64,000 nucleotides of DNA from an uncultured bacterium (GTDB lineage Bacteria; Planctomycetota; Phycisphaerae; Phycisphaerales; SM1A02): NCBI GenBank assembly GCA_903891095.1, contig CAITDI010000050.1, positions 1 to 64,000 on the forward strand. The letters are read 5' to 3'. Both the position numbers and the translations under genes were made by a program. Below the pieces are notes generated by a model, which made no database searches, was not told where the DNA came from, and worked only from the letters and a program-made list of their open reading frames with translations. Below, one piece after another: positions 8,327 through 12,711 of this stretch (its first letter is position 1; each line of letters opens with the position of its first letter).

Positions 8327-8629
8327 ATGCAGATCAACGTCAAGGGCAAGCATCTTGAGATCACCGAGGCCATCGACACGTACGTCCGCAAGAAGTGCGA
8401 GCGGCTCGTCCGCTACTTCGACAAGGTGCTCGCGATCGACTGCGTGATCGAGAAGGAGCCGCATGGCTACCACGTCGAGTTCATCGTCGACGTCGAGCAC
8501 CACGACGACTTCATCGTGAACTACCGCGACGCCGACCTCTACGCCGCGATCGACCTCGCCGTCGACCGCGAGGCGCGCGTCCTCAGCGACCACAAGCAGC
8601 GCACGCGCGACCACAAGCACCATCAGTGA
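8327..8629 (+). CDS. hpf: Ribosome hibernation promoting factor, short form
   Basis: One hundred residues beginning MQINVKGKHLEIT, the characteristic beta1 strand of HPF/YfiA proteins, with EAIDTYVRKKCERL (helix 1) and DADLYAAIDLAVD (helix 2). HPF binds the 30S decoding region and promotes inactive 70S dimers in stationary phase. The absence of a C-terminal extension marks the short type. ATG 8327 has a purine-rich ribosome binding site (AGAAAGAAGG) just upstream, which selects it over in-frame upstream codons. The gene is followed at 38 bases by ptsN and then ptsH, the same order as in the proteobacterial rpoN cluster, though no rpoN is in the window. Confidence 0.93.
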   Translation: MQINVKGKHLEITEAIDTYVRKKCERLVRYFDKVLAIDCVIEKEPHGYHVEFIVDVEHHDDFIVNYRDADLYAAIDLAVDREARVLSDHKQRTRDHKHHQ

Positions 8630-8667
8630 ACCCAAGACCCGAACCACAGCAGGATCGAACGAATCAC

Positions 8668-9144
8668 ATGAAACTCCGTGAAATCGTCGTTGAGAAGGCG
8701 ATCGTCCCCAACCTGGCCGCGACCAAGCGCGATGACGCCGTCAAGGAGCTCCTCGACGCGCTCGTCGCGAGCGGCAAGGTCTCCGCCGACATGCGCGACG
8801 TCTACGCGAAGTCGATCATCGCGCGCGAGAACAAGGGCTCGACCGGTCTCAACCACGGCGTGGCGATCCCGCACACCAAGAGCACCGCGGTCAAGACGCC
8901 GATGGCGGCGATCGGCGTGAGCAAGAGCGGCGTGGACTTCAACTCGCTCGACAAGCAGCCGGTGTACTCGATCTTCCTGCTGGTCTCGCCCGAGGAGAAG
9001 CCCGAGCTCCACCTCGACGCGATCCAGGCGATCTTCTCGCATCTCTCCAAGGACCAGTTCCGTCGCTTCCTTCGCCAGGCCACCACGGTCAAGGACGTGC
9101 TGACGCTTCTCGATGAAGCCGACGCCGGACAGGTCGCGCGCTGA
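8668..9144 (+). CDS. ptsN: PTS EIIA-type regulatory protein (EIIANtr-like)
   Basis: A 158-residue PTS EIIA type-2 domain standing alone, with no EIIB/EIIC permease nearby. The phosphoryl-accepting histidine is His69 in GVAIPHTKS, equivalent to the active His of PtsN. Also visible is the conserved RENKGSTGLNHGVAIPH region and the C-terminal LHLDAIQAIFSHL. In proteobacteria such stand-alone EIIA proteins regulate potassium transport, nitrogen and stress responses rather than sugar uptake. Position between hpf and ptsH suggests HPr, nine bases downstream, is the phosphodonor. EI (PtsI) is not in this window. Confidence 0.92.
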   Translation: MKLREIVVEKAIVPNLAATKRDDAVKELLDALVASGKVSADMRDVYAKSIIARENKGSTGLNHGVAIPHTKSTAVKTPMAAIGVSKSGVDFNSLDKQPVYSIFLLVSPEEKPELHLDAIQAIFSHLSKDQFRRFLRQATTVKDVLTLLDEADAGQVAR

Positions 9145-9153
9145 ACGCTGCCG

Positions 9154-9429
9154 ATGCTTGCGGCGCAAACGACCATCGTCAATCGCCTCGGGCTGCATGC
9201 GCGGCCGGCGATGACGTTTGTCGAGGAAGCGACGCGGTTCATCGCCGCGATCACCGTGCGCAAGATGCCCGACGGCGAGACGGTCGACGGCAAGTCGATC
9301 CTGCAGATGCTGATGCTCGCGGGGACCTGCGGCACGGTGATCGAGATCACGGCCGACGGCAGCGACGAGTCCGATGCGATCGGCGCGCTGGTGCGGCTGG
9401 TCGAAGGCAAGTTCGGCGAGGACGAGTGA
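9154..9429 (+). CDS. ptsH: HPr phosphocarrier protein
   Basis: A 91-residue HPr. The phosphorylated His15 lies in NRLGLHARPA, and a serine at residue 48 in VDGKSILQMLML matches the regulatory Ser46 site used by HPr kinase in many bacteria, so both EI- and HprK-type regulation are possible. Start ATG 9154 follows the ptsN stop by nine bases. It probably relays phosphate to the EIIANtr-like protein encoded immediately upstream. The stop codon is followed by tandem copies of a 12-base unit that each carry another TGA. Confidence 0.93.
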   Translation: MLAAQTTIVNRLGLHARPAMTFVEEATRFIAAITVRKMPDGETVDGKSILQMLMLAGTCGTVIEITADGSDESDAIGALVRLVEGKFGEDE

Positions 9430-9470
9430 CGCGCCGAGTGACGCGCCGAGTGACCCGCGCCGAGTGCGCC
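9424..9470 (+). repeat. 12-base tandem repeat GAGTGACGCGCC at ptsH stop
   Basis: Two perfect units (9424-9435, 9436-9447), an expanded third (9448-9461) and a truncated fourth. The repeat contains the ptsH stop codon and duplicates it, and it runs up to the convergent gpsA stop. Confidence 0.85.
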
Positions 9471-10522
9471 TAGCCGATCCGCTCGGTGGTGGTCGCGCGC
9501 CGCATGAGCTGGCCGAGCGCTTCCTTGGGATCGAGGCCGTCGAACACCATGGCAGCGACGGCTTCGCAGATCGGCAGCTCGATGCCGCGTTCGCGCGCGA
9601 GACGCACGAGCGCGCGCGCGGTGGGCACGCCTTCCACGACGGACGTCGTCGACGACAGCGCGTCGTCGACCTTTGCGCCGCGCGCGAGCCGCTCGCCAAA
9701 GCTGCGGTTGCGGCCTTCGGGCGCAAAGCACGTCGTGGCGAGATCGCCCGCGCCGGCGACGCCGAAGAACGTCTCGACCTGCCCGCCGAGCGCGACGCCG
9801 ATGCGCGCGATCTCCGCGAGTCCGCGCGCCAGCAGCGCGCTCTTGGCGTTGGTGCCGAGGCCCATGCCGTCGGCGACGCCCGCGGCGATCGCGATCACGT
9901 TCTTGCACGCGCCTGCGAGTTCGACGCCGACGAGATCGGTCGACTGGTAGATCTTGGTCCACGGCGAGGTGAACACCGCGCCCACGCGCGCGGCGAGCGC
10001 GGGGTCCTCACACGCCGCGACCAGCACCGCGGGCCGTCGGCGCGCGAGCTCCGCGGCGATCGTCGGGCCGCTGAGCGCGACCACGGGATGCTGCGCGCCG
10101 CAGGTCTCGCGCAGGATGTCGCACGGAAGGCGGAACGACTCGACCTCGATGCCCTTGGCGACGCTCACGATCGGAACGCCCGCCGGCAGATGCGGCGCGA
10201 GGCGCGAGAAAGTCTGGCGGATGAACTGCGTCGGGATCGCGCACACGACGAGGGTCGCGGTCGCGAGCGCTGCGGGATCGGCGGTCACGGTCACCGAAGG
10301 CGGGAGCTGGAAGCCCGGCAGCCGCTCGCTCGATCGGGCCGACGCGAGGCGCGCGGCCTCCGCGGCAAACGGCGAGACGATCGTGACCGCCGCGCCGTGC
10401 GCGACCAGCATGTCGCTCAGGACGAGCGCCATCTGACCGTCGCCGACGATCGCGACATGCTCGCGAGCGCGCGGATCCTGCGCGTTCTGCTGCGAGTTCT
10501 GGTGGTTGGCCGCGGAGTGCAC
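9470..10522 (-). CDS. gpsA: NAD(P)-dependent glycerol-3-phosphate dehydrogenase
   Basis: GpsA reduces dihydroxyacetone phosphate to sn-glycerol-3-phosphate for phospholipid synthesis. About 350 residues from GTG 10522. N-terminal Rossmann loop VAIVGDGQMALVLSDML is an unusual GDGQMA version of the common GAGSWGTALA. Other family blocks: SVAKGIE, the catalytic-lysine segment VGVELAGACKNVIAIAAGVADG, FGVAGAGDLATTCFAPEGRNR (the GAGDL and RNR motifs) and the terminal SVVEGVPTARALVRLA. No ATG is available near this position; the upstream in-frame sequence to 10678 is not protein-like, so GTG is the likely start. The gene is convergent with ptsH and divergent from the P-type ATPase. Confidence 0.92.
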   Translation of the reverse strand: MHSAANHQNSQQNAQDPRAREHVAIVGDGQMALVLSDMLVAHGAAVTIVSPFAAEAARLASARSSERLPGFQLPPSVTVTADPAALATATLVVCAIPTQFIRQTFSRLAPHLPAGVPIVSVAKGIEVESFRLPCDILRETCGAQHPVVALSGPTIAAELARRRPAVLVAACEDPALAARVGAVFTSPWTKIYQSTDLVGVELAGACKNVIAIAAGVADGMGLGTNAKSALLARGLAEIARIGVALGGQVETFFGVAGAGDLATTCFAPEGRNRSFGERLARGAKVDDALSSTTSVVEGVPTARALVRLARERGIELPICEAVAAMVFDGLDPKEALGQLMRRATTTERIG

Positions 10523-10639
10523 GGGCGCAGGATAACCGAGGTCAAGGACTGCCCCGAGGGGAGCGGTCCGCGAGGGGCGCCGAACATCCGACGGATGGCG
10601 GATGGGCGGCGGTCGGATGGGGCGTGGCGGCGGAGGCTC

Positions 10640-10648
10640 TGCTACTCT
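10640..10648 (+). promoter_or_regulatory. Extended -10 promoter element TGCTACTCT
   Basis: TGC-TACTCT lies 20 bases before the ATPase ATG at 10669, so transcription would begin near 10655 with a short leader. It is a match to the recurring TGCTACAYT pattern; no strong -35 is seen. Confidence 0.45.
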
Positions 10649-10668
10649 TCGACCTCTCGGATCACACC

Positions 10669-12711
10669 ATGTCGACACTCACTTCGACCCCGACGGGTTC
10701 CACAGTTCCGGATTCCACCGCTCGCCTCGGCAACGACGACGCGGGCGGCGCCGAGCGCCTCGAGAAGCAGCTCTTCGTCGCCCTCTTCGGCGGCGTGCTG
10801 CTCCTGGCGGCCTGGGTATCGCACCTGTTCGGCATCGAAGGCACGGTCAGCAACATCCCGGCGCTCATCGGCGCCCTGGTGCTCGTGGTGCCGCTCGCCA
10901 AGGGCGCGTTCGAGGAGCTCCGCGAAGGCCGCGCCTCGAGCGACAGCCTCGCGAGCCTGGCCGTGTTCGCGGCGATCGCGAACGAGCTGTACCTCGCGGC
11001 GGGCTTCCTGGCGTTCTTCCTGTGGTTCAGCGAGCTCGTGCTCTCGCGCACCGCGTGGGGCGCGCAGCGCGCGATCCGCGAGCTGATCGAGCTCACCCCC
11101 GACATCGCGCGCCTGGTCGACGCCAACGGCGGCGAGCGCGAGGTGTCGCTCTCCGAACTGCGCCAAGGCTCGATCGTGCGCGTGCGTCCCGGCGAGAACC
11201 TGCCGGCCGACGGCGTCGTCCGCAGCGGTACATCCAGCATCAACCAGGCGTCGCTCACCGGCGAAGCCGTTCCGATCGAAGTGCAGGCGGGCGTGGCGGT
11301 CTACGCAGGCACGACCAACCTCACCGGCCAGATCGAGGTCGAGGTCACCGCCGTCAAGGGCGAGACCACCATCGGCAAGGTCGAGAAGCTCATCCGCGAG
11401 GCCGAGAGCGCGAAGGGCCGCAAGCAGGAACTCATCGAGCGCATCGCGGGCTACTACGTGCCCGTCGTGCTGATGGTCGCGCTGATCGTCTGGTTCTTTA
11501 CCGCGAAGTCGGGCTCGCCCGACGCGAAGTCCGTCGCCGCCGAGCGCGCGATCACCGTGCTGGTCGTGACCTGCCCGGGCGCCCTGCTCATCGCGTATCC
11601 GACGGCGATGGTCGCTGCATTCGCCGCGGCCGCGCGCCTTGGCGTGATGATCAAGCAGACCCGCACGCTCGAGAGCGCTGCGGACATCGACACGGTCGTG
11701 ATGGACAAGACGGGCACGCTCACCACGGGCAAGTTCGCGGTGAGCCGCCTCGCGCCGGCCGACGGCGTCGACGGCGCCGCGCTGCTGCAGGCTGCGGCCG
11801 ACGCGGAGCAGTCGTCGAACCACCCGCTCGCCAAGTCGATCCTCGAGACCGCCGAGCGCGCGCGCATCGTGCCGCAGTCGCTGGTCTCGTATCGCGAGAT
11901 CCACGGTCGCGGCGTCGCCGCGACCACCGCTGCCGGCGAGATCTTCGCGGGCCGCGGTGCGTGGATCATCGAGCTCAATCCGTCCACCGCCGCGGAGGTC
12001 AAGGCCGTCGAGGCCAAGATCGAAGGCATGTCGGGCGTGCACGTCATGGCGGGCGGCCGCTACCTCGGCGCCGTCGGCCTCGAGGACAAGCTCCGCCGCA
12101 ACGCGGGCGAAGTCGTCGCCAAGCTGCGCGAACTCGGCGTGCGCCGCGTGTCGATCTTTACGGGCGACCGTCTTCCGGTCGCAACGCGCGTCGGCCAGGC
12201 GGTCGGCGTCGATGCGATCGAGGCCGAGTGCCTGCCCGAGGAAAAGCACGAGGAACTCAAGTACCTCATGCGCAAGGGTCACCGCACGCTCGTCGTCGGC
12301 GACGGCATCAACGACGGCCCGATCCTCGCGACCGCCGACGTCGGCGTGGCGATGGGTCTCTCGGGCTCCGACATCGCGACCAACAGCGCGGGCGTCGCGC
12401 TGATGAACGACGACCTGCGGAACATCCCGTTCCTCCTCGAGATCGCGCGCAAGGCCAAGTCGGTCATCGCGCTCAACATCACGGTGGCGATCCTCATGGC
12501 GATCGTGGGCCTCGCGCTCGCGGCGACCGGCCGGCTCTACATCTGGGTGACGCCGTTCTATCAGGCGGCTGCCTACATCTTCGTGATCGCGAACTCGCTG
12601 CGACTCGTGCGCTTTGGCGAGGAATTCGCGAGCACCGAAGAAGTCCGCAGGCAGGCGGAGGCCGACGCCGCCGCCAAGCCGACGCGCCGCATGCTGGCGT
12701 CGCCGAACTGA
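10669..12711 (+). CDS. P1B-type (heavy-metal) cation ATPase with CPG motif
   Basis: About 680 residues. Order: N-terminal membrane helices ([19 protein letters not shown]), actuator domain with LTGEAVP near residue 195, membrane motif [11 protein letters not shown] at 301-311, phosphorylation site DKTGTLTTG from 346, the soft-metal ATPase HP motif (SSNHPLAKS) at 385-386, and hinge [20 protein letters not shown] from 544. These define the P1B class, which exports or loads transition metals. Two points are odd: there is no N-terminal HMA metal-binding domain, and the transmembrane metal site reads Cys-Pro-Gly instead of CPC, CPH or SPC. The metal therefore cannot be assigned. ATG 10669 is preferred over an upstream in-frame codon at 10624 because the putative promoter lies between them. 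Confidence 0.93.

Follow-up and report, generated by a model that had tools for sequence, protein, structure and literature searches.

The Gene Cluster

The window analysed here is a stretch of 64,000 nucleotides from an uncultured bacterium of the planctomycete order Phycisphaerales. It carries a run of four co-directional genes (Table 1). A gene for a predicted membrane protein of the DUF502 family is followed by hpf, ptsN, and ptsH, with intergenic gaps of 37, 38, and 9 nt. All four products exceed their Pfam gathering cut-offs. An earlier note, made from the sequence alone, had described the adjacent trio with its phosphorylation sites and the DUF502 gene at its head. Pfam matches, coordinates, and alignments bear out both descriptions. 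The downstream neighbour of ptsH is gpsA, which is convergent. A simple scan found no sigma-70-like promoter, and the terminator-like sites it gave do not lie at the ends of the unit.

Table 1. Genes and active-site codons of the cluster, with positions in the window.
Feature	Position	Strand	Remarks
DUF502 (PF04367) predicted membrane protein, 280 aa	7447..8289	+	Pfam 95.8 bits; cluster head
hpf, short-form ribosome hibernation promoting factor (HPF), 100 aa	8327..8629	+	Pfam Ribosomal_S30AE 65.8 bits
ptsN, EIIA-Ntr-like phosphoacceptor, 158 aa	8668..9144	+	Pfam PTS_EIIA_2 108.3 bits
PtsN His69 codon	8872-8874		CAC
ptsH, HPr, 91 aa	9154..9429	+	Pfam PTS-HPr 91.5 bits
HPr His15 codon	9196-9198		CAT
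HPr Ser46-equivalent codon (residue 48)	9295-9297		TCG
gpsA	within 9470-10678		convergent

The phosphorylatable histidines are invariant in the related loci. His69 of PtsN is found in 37/37 loci of the order and in 56/56 other loci of the phylum (93/93 rows), and His15 of HPr in 37/37 and 65/65 (102/102 rows). Alignment to 3le1 also identifies the equivalent of Ser46, which is numbered 48 because this HPr has a two-residue insertion relative to 3le1. It is a serine in 37/37 loci of the order and in 55/65 of the others (92/102 rows).

The PDB sequence relatives of PtsN consist of natural proteins, all of them nitrogen-regulatory IIA proteins, and of immunogens. By these relatives, PtsN fits an EIIA of the nitrogen-regulatory type. 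The HPF is of the short form, with one S30AE domain and without the C-terminal dimerisation domain, and its best PDB matches are the short HPFs 9sda, 4v8h, and 6h4n. A PDB sequence search with DUF502 returned no relative.

PTS Components of the Source Genome

The source genome (3.6 Mb in 131 contigs, 98.6% complete) contains one HPr gene and one S30AE protein, both of them the copies in the cluster, and one DUF502 gene. A search for ptsI elsewhere, as proposed in the earlier note, located a single enzyme I away from the cluster (C121:75355). This protein of 595 aa has only the Pfam domains PEP-utilisers_N, PEP-utilizers, and PEP-utilizers_C, and no GAF domain; its active-site motif was judged by eye only. 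Enzyme I of the PtsP type, by comparison, has an N-terminal GAF domain. The enzyme I gene lies between apparent genes for DnaK and RNase E/G (L026:3882-12008; translations read by eye). The genome has enzyme I, HPr, and EIIA, and the active histidines are conserved in HPr and PtsN.

The EIIA had been called a lone one. It is alone at the cluster, but a second stand-alone copy is encoded at C33:43939. The earlier note had also found rpoN, hprK, and any sugar permease absent nearby. The only rpoN gene is not adjacent to hpf-ptsN and lies on a different contig (C13). Genome-wide, there were no matches to PTS_EIIC (PF02378) or to EIIA-Man; the permease search consisted of these two, and the membrane subunits of the ascorbate/galactitol, mannose, and glucitol types fall outside its direct reach. 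Within the classes searched, no full sugar PTS that could use this HPr was found; the presence of one is what the earlier note had named as speaking against its reading. HprK was detected neither with PF07475 nor with TIGR00679, but both models also missed the Bacillus subtilis control genome, which we take to carry hprK. HprK is thus likely, not certain, to be missing. Taken as a whole, the inventory agrees with a permease-less phosphorelay.

Conservation Within the Order

Close conservation was followed in the source genome and 40 relatives, and 37 of these 41 genomes have the complete trio. In the other four (G006, G007, G011, and G014) it is cut by contig ends, and the parts that can be seen have the same order. 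A lack of conservation in related genomes, another finding that would have counted against the earlier note, is thus not what is seen. At the head of the block, DUF502 is found in 34 of the 37 loci. No DUF502 match was obtained in any part of genomes G004, G016, and G020, all three of which retain the trio.

To control for mere proximity, a record was made of which genes of the window remain near HPF, within about 5 kb on each side. Because most flanking genes are still present in the window's own genus and family, the informative loci are the 16 from other families of the order. All of these (16/16) have DUF502, HPF, PtsN, and HPr, whereas none (0/16) has the flanking PurN, PDZ protein, GpsA, ATPase, aldolase, or MnmA in that span; for MnmA, which lies near the edge of the span, this count says little. 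The four-gene arrangement is far from chance.

Conservation Across Planctomycetota

For the wider comparison, the phylum was sampled evenly, giving 98 genomes. HPF and HPr are encoded co-directionally within 2.4 kb of each other in 75 of these. Both proteins occur in 88 genomes, 13 of which lack a pair encoded on one strand and no more than 5 kb apart. These counts exclude 19 weak HPr rows (E about 1e-9 or worse, in long frames) and keep one row of that kind; because of the exclusion, three genomes count as being without HPr. Outside the order, 65 of the 69 paired loci were examined, two of them in the same class and 63 outside it.

The two loci of the class (L079 and L090) have the arrangement DUF502-HPF-PtsN-HPr-PtsI. 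The same arrangement is found in the loci L146-L149 from named genomes, which group with them, so that DUF502 heads the block in all six class loci examined. Outside the class, DUF502 is in the block in 0/63 loci. Since it is present in 34/37 loci of the order and in these six, DUF502 is a class-specific addition and was no member of the cluster in its wider ancestral form. The association of DUF502 with the trio, raised in the earlier note, therefore holds inside the class and ends at its border.

Outside the class, PtsN stands between HPF and HPr in 53/63 loci and is missing there in 10/63. The cluster includes ptsI in at least 38/63 loci and rpoN in at least 19/63, both being lower bounds since 8/63 loci have short flanks. 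The gene truA is found in 36/63 (Pfam-confirmed on three examples), and a CofD/YvcK (GlmR-like) gene precedes ptsH in 13/63 (L117-L119 and L121-L130; Pfam-confirmed on four examples). RapZ and EIIA-Man occur in none of the 63. The fuller planctomycete layout is rpoN-truA-hpf-ptsN-[yvcK]-ptsH-ptsI, with rpoN-truA upstream and ptsI downstream.

In some loci, a gap of 1-1.6 kb before ptsH might have held HprK. This candidate was rejected, as the four genes scanned there are CofD/YvcK and the blocks contain no HprK match. In some of the YvcK copies, L126 and L128 among them, an N-terminal stretch looks membrane-spanning by eye.

The earlier note read the conserved trio as a sign that the phosphorelay-hibernation link is the functional core. 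As synteny, a core made of the trio stands (37/41 in the order and 53/63 outside the class), though weakened by the 10/63 loci without PtsN at that place and by the 13/88 genomes in which HPF and HPr lie apart. As function, the core would be a reasonable proposal.

Occurrence in Other Phyla

Named genomes were scanned with the PtsN alignment, and the figures below come from the best 80 loci of the matches listed. These matches include planctomycetes and Firmicutes, plus several other phyla. Among them, HprK comes after HPF-PtsN in Omnitrophota (L176, where the C-terminal domain of HprK was seen), Hydrogenedentota (L200), FCPU426 (L222), Endomicrobium (L183), and Syntrophorhabdaceae (L213). Two further loci (L180 and L212) have PtsN-HprK with no HPF detected. 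Among the same matches, YvcK follows in Omnitrophota L176, L180, and L182, in FCPU426 L222, and in L212; RapZ is found in L183, L212, and L213, and mannose-type subunits in L200 and L213. Two loci, assigned by title to Deltaproteobacteria (L197) and Desulfobacteraceae (L223), have RpoN-HPF-PtsN. In longer or shorter form, this neighbourhood is found far beyond Proteobacteria. In a locus from Riflebacteria (L210:5365-9277), secA comes directly after hpf-ptsN.

Descent of the Cluster

A tree of PtsN was made from 90 rows and 157 columns, using a quick search and one support value. The block copies of the order form one group (support 99), as do those of the order and class together (99), and all planctomycete block copies fall together as well (91). 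The second EIIA of the source genome groups apart from these, with other paralogs (95). The tree follows genus, family, order, and class. The PtsN of the block is vertically inherited within the phylum; the sharing of the cluster between phyla would reflect either inheritance or old transfer. The cluster in the window is a trimmed, vertically inherited remnant of a widely shared cluster.

Proposed Function

The four genes are probably what remains, by inheritance and trimming, of an old rpoN-linked cluster, and would encode a regulatory PTS without a permease, with hpf co-expressed. This reading builds on what was observed of the genes' identity and active-site residues, the PTS inventory of the genome, synteny, and descent. 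Transcription as an operon, phosphotransfer, the targets, and any effect on hibernation are predicted from them.

The process would start with enzyme I, encoded elsewhere, which would take phosphate from PEP and pass it to His15 of HPr. HPr would in turn phosphorylate PtsN at His69 and the second EIIA at its active histidine. Because no sugar permease would drain phosphate, the phosphorylated fraction of PtsN would report the PEP-to-pyruvate balance. PtsN would then act by binding its partners. Proteobacterial EIIA-Ntr works in this way on K+ transport and on SpoT, and the partners that a 2026 review gives for PtsN there are K+ transport proteins (TrkA), KdpD, and SpoT (PMC13104625). With hpf co-expressed with ptsN-ptsH, energy status and ribosome storage would be set together. 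Two points against this reading are that ptsI, which the relay needs, is gone from the cluster in this order, and that the simple scan showed no promoter or terminator at the borders of the unit.

Two relatives in the order carry fused EIIA domains. The one in G024 (L226:4166-6763) is joined to a Na+/H+ exchanger that also has a Usp domain, the one in G039 (L227:2059-4263) to an amino-acid permease with TrkA_C. Together with the proteobacterial partners, these fusions suggest that the outputs concern transport and energy status. Neither EIIA of the source genome is a fusion of these kinds.

A link between the phosphorelay and hibernation is plausible. So far it consists of gene order and probable co-transcription, and the adjacency could instead be a housekeeping relic, maintained by shared expression or by inertia and involving no regulation of hibernation by the relay. 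This is a serious alternative, with a chance somewhat short of even. It draws on the 13/88 genomes in which HPF and HPr are apart, and no publication was found in which PtsN affects HPF; in the literature consulted, as far as those sources go, the proteobacterial link too is one of gene order only. Inertia, however, would not be expected to keep the unit whole in 16/16 loci of other families while the tested flanks are found in 0/16.

A more far-reaching version of the link is doubtful. Here hpf-ptsN-ptsH would be the kernel of a cluster older than the Proteobacteria, which connected PEP status to sigma-54, to amino-sugar supply through RapZ or YvcK/GlmR, and to hibernation. The sigma-54 and amino-sugar arms would have left this order, and PtsN, in its phosphorylated or free form and perhaps at the membrane together with DUF502, would directly set the activity of HPF, as a hibernation switch under PTS control.

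It is very unlikely that HPr and EIIA belong to a sugar PTS with its membrane subunits encoded elsewhere. A PTS_EIIC permease does occur in 4/41 of the related genomes (G018, G025, G030, and G034). In G025, G030, and G034, however, it adjoins one long frame that carries its own domains of HPr, enzyme I, and EIIA (checked with Pfam in G034 alone), the source genome has neither PTS_EIIC nor EIIA-Man, and the natural PDB relatives of PtsN are of the nitrogen-regulatory kind.

Assembly of the cluster anew in this lineage, either by transfer from Proteobacteria or by a convergent gathering of the three genes, has very little probability left. The earlier note had held that the cluster was recreated outside Proteobacteria, and rpoN and ptsI are indeed not adjacent in this order, where DUF502 is a local addition. 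Such re-invention is rejected by the PtsN tree, which tracks taxonomy, and by the intermediate layouts: sister lineages across the phylum have the same gene order with rpoN-truA and ptsI attached, and other phyla have fuller versions with hprK and rapZ.

Hardly more can be said for Firmicutes-like catabolite control through a serine switch (HprK acting on Ser46 of HPr). The Ser46 equivalent is kept in 37/37 loci of the order, but E. coli HPr also carries Ser46, and E. coli is not known to have HprK. No HprK exceeded the cut-off of two models in any of the 41 genomes, nor was any seen in the 102 block loci read across the phylum, with models that both missed the B. subtilis control. Weak HprK matches of about 46-49 residues, below the cut-off, were seen in G036 and G040.

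Relation to Known Systems

The reading of the cluster as the remnant of a regulatory, permease-less PTS can be compared with three known systems. The first is the regulatory “group R” of Comas et al. 2008 (PMC2405797), in which the enzyme I of Planctomycetes is placed (EI-R with HPr) and which is without transporters. The likeness lies in enzyme I and HPr with no permease detected, and in the plain three domains of the enzyme I of the source genome, which lacks GAF; it is a likeness by domains, not by tree. The difference is that planctomycete loci also hold rpoN-hpf-ptsN-(yvcK)-ptsH-ptsI. In the same paper, the rpoN cluster is proposed to have been assembled early in Proteobacteria. The layouts described here suggest that this grouping is wider than Proteobacteria.

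The second is PTS-Ntr. According to the 2026 review, which sets out the operon of Proteobacteria, Planctomycetales have homologues of it (PMC13104625). That operon, rpoN-hpf-ptsN-rapZ-ptsO with ptsP elsewhere, likewise has hpf before ptsN and a gene of the HPr family after it, and the system has no permease, none being detected here, and likewise an EIIA-Ntr-like phosphoacceptor. In contrast, the block in the window is without rpoN and rapZ, and the enzyme I of the source genome is without the GAF domain of PtsP. Taken strictly, PTS-Ntr has an enzyme I with an N-terminal GAF domain, and by this measure the enzyme I of the source genome falls outside it; it also has an EIIA of the nitrogen-regulatory type, which PtsN matches by its PDB relatives.

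The third is the B. subtilis operon yvcI-yvcJ-glmR(yvcK)-yvcL-crh-yvcN, as given in PMC6171935. There YvcK/GlmR lies beside a gene of the HPr family, as it does in 13/63 of the loci outside the class. This operon differs in having no hpf or ptsN, and its Crh is HPr-like, not HPr. The order of the window, unlike B. subtilis, has no yvcK in the block.

No published description was found of the planctomycete cluster rpoN-truA-hpf-ptsN-(yvcK)-ptsH-ptsI, part of which may appear in the supplementary figures of PMC2405797. Nor was one found of DUF502 beside hpf, or of YvcK/GlmR before ptsH in planctomycetes. The cluster represents a familiar type of system whose layout has been little described.

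Significance

A grouping of genes usually treated as proteobacterial becomes a phylum-wide trait of Planctomycetota, shared with several other phyla. Its intermediate layouts reveal which members are lost and which are retained. The source organism also offers a natural test system, since it has one HPF, one HPr, and one enzyme I, with no permease detected. Sugar transport would therefore not mask an effect of the relay on hibernation.
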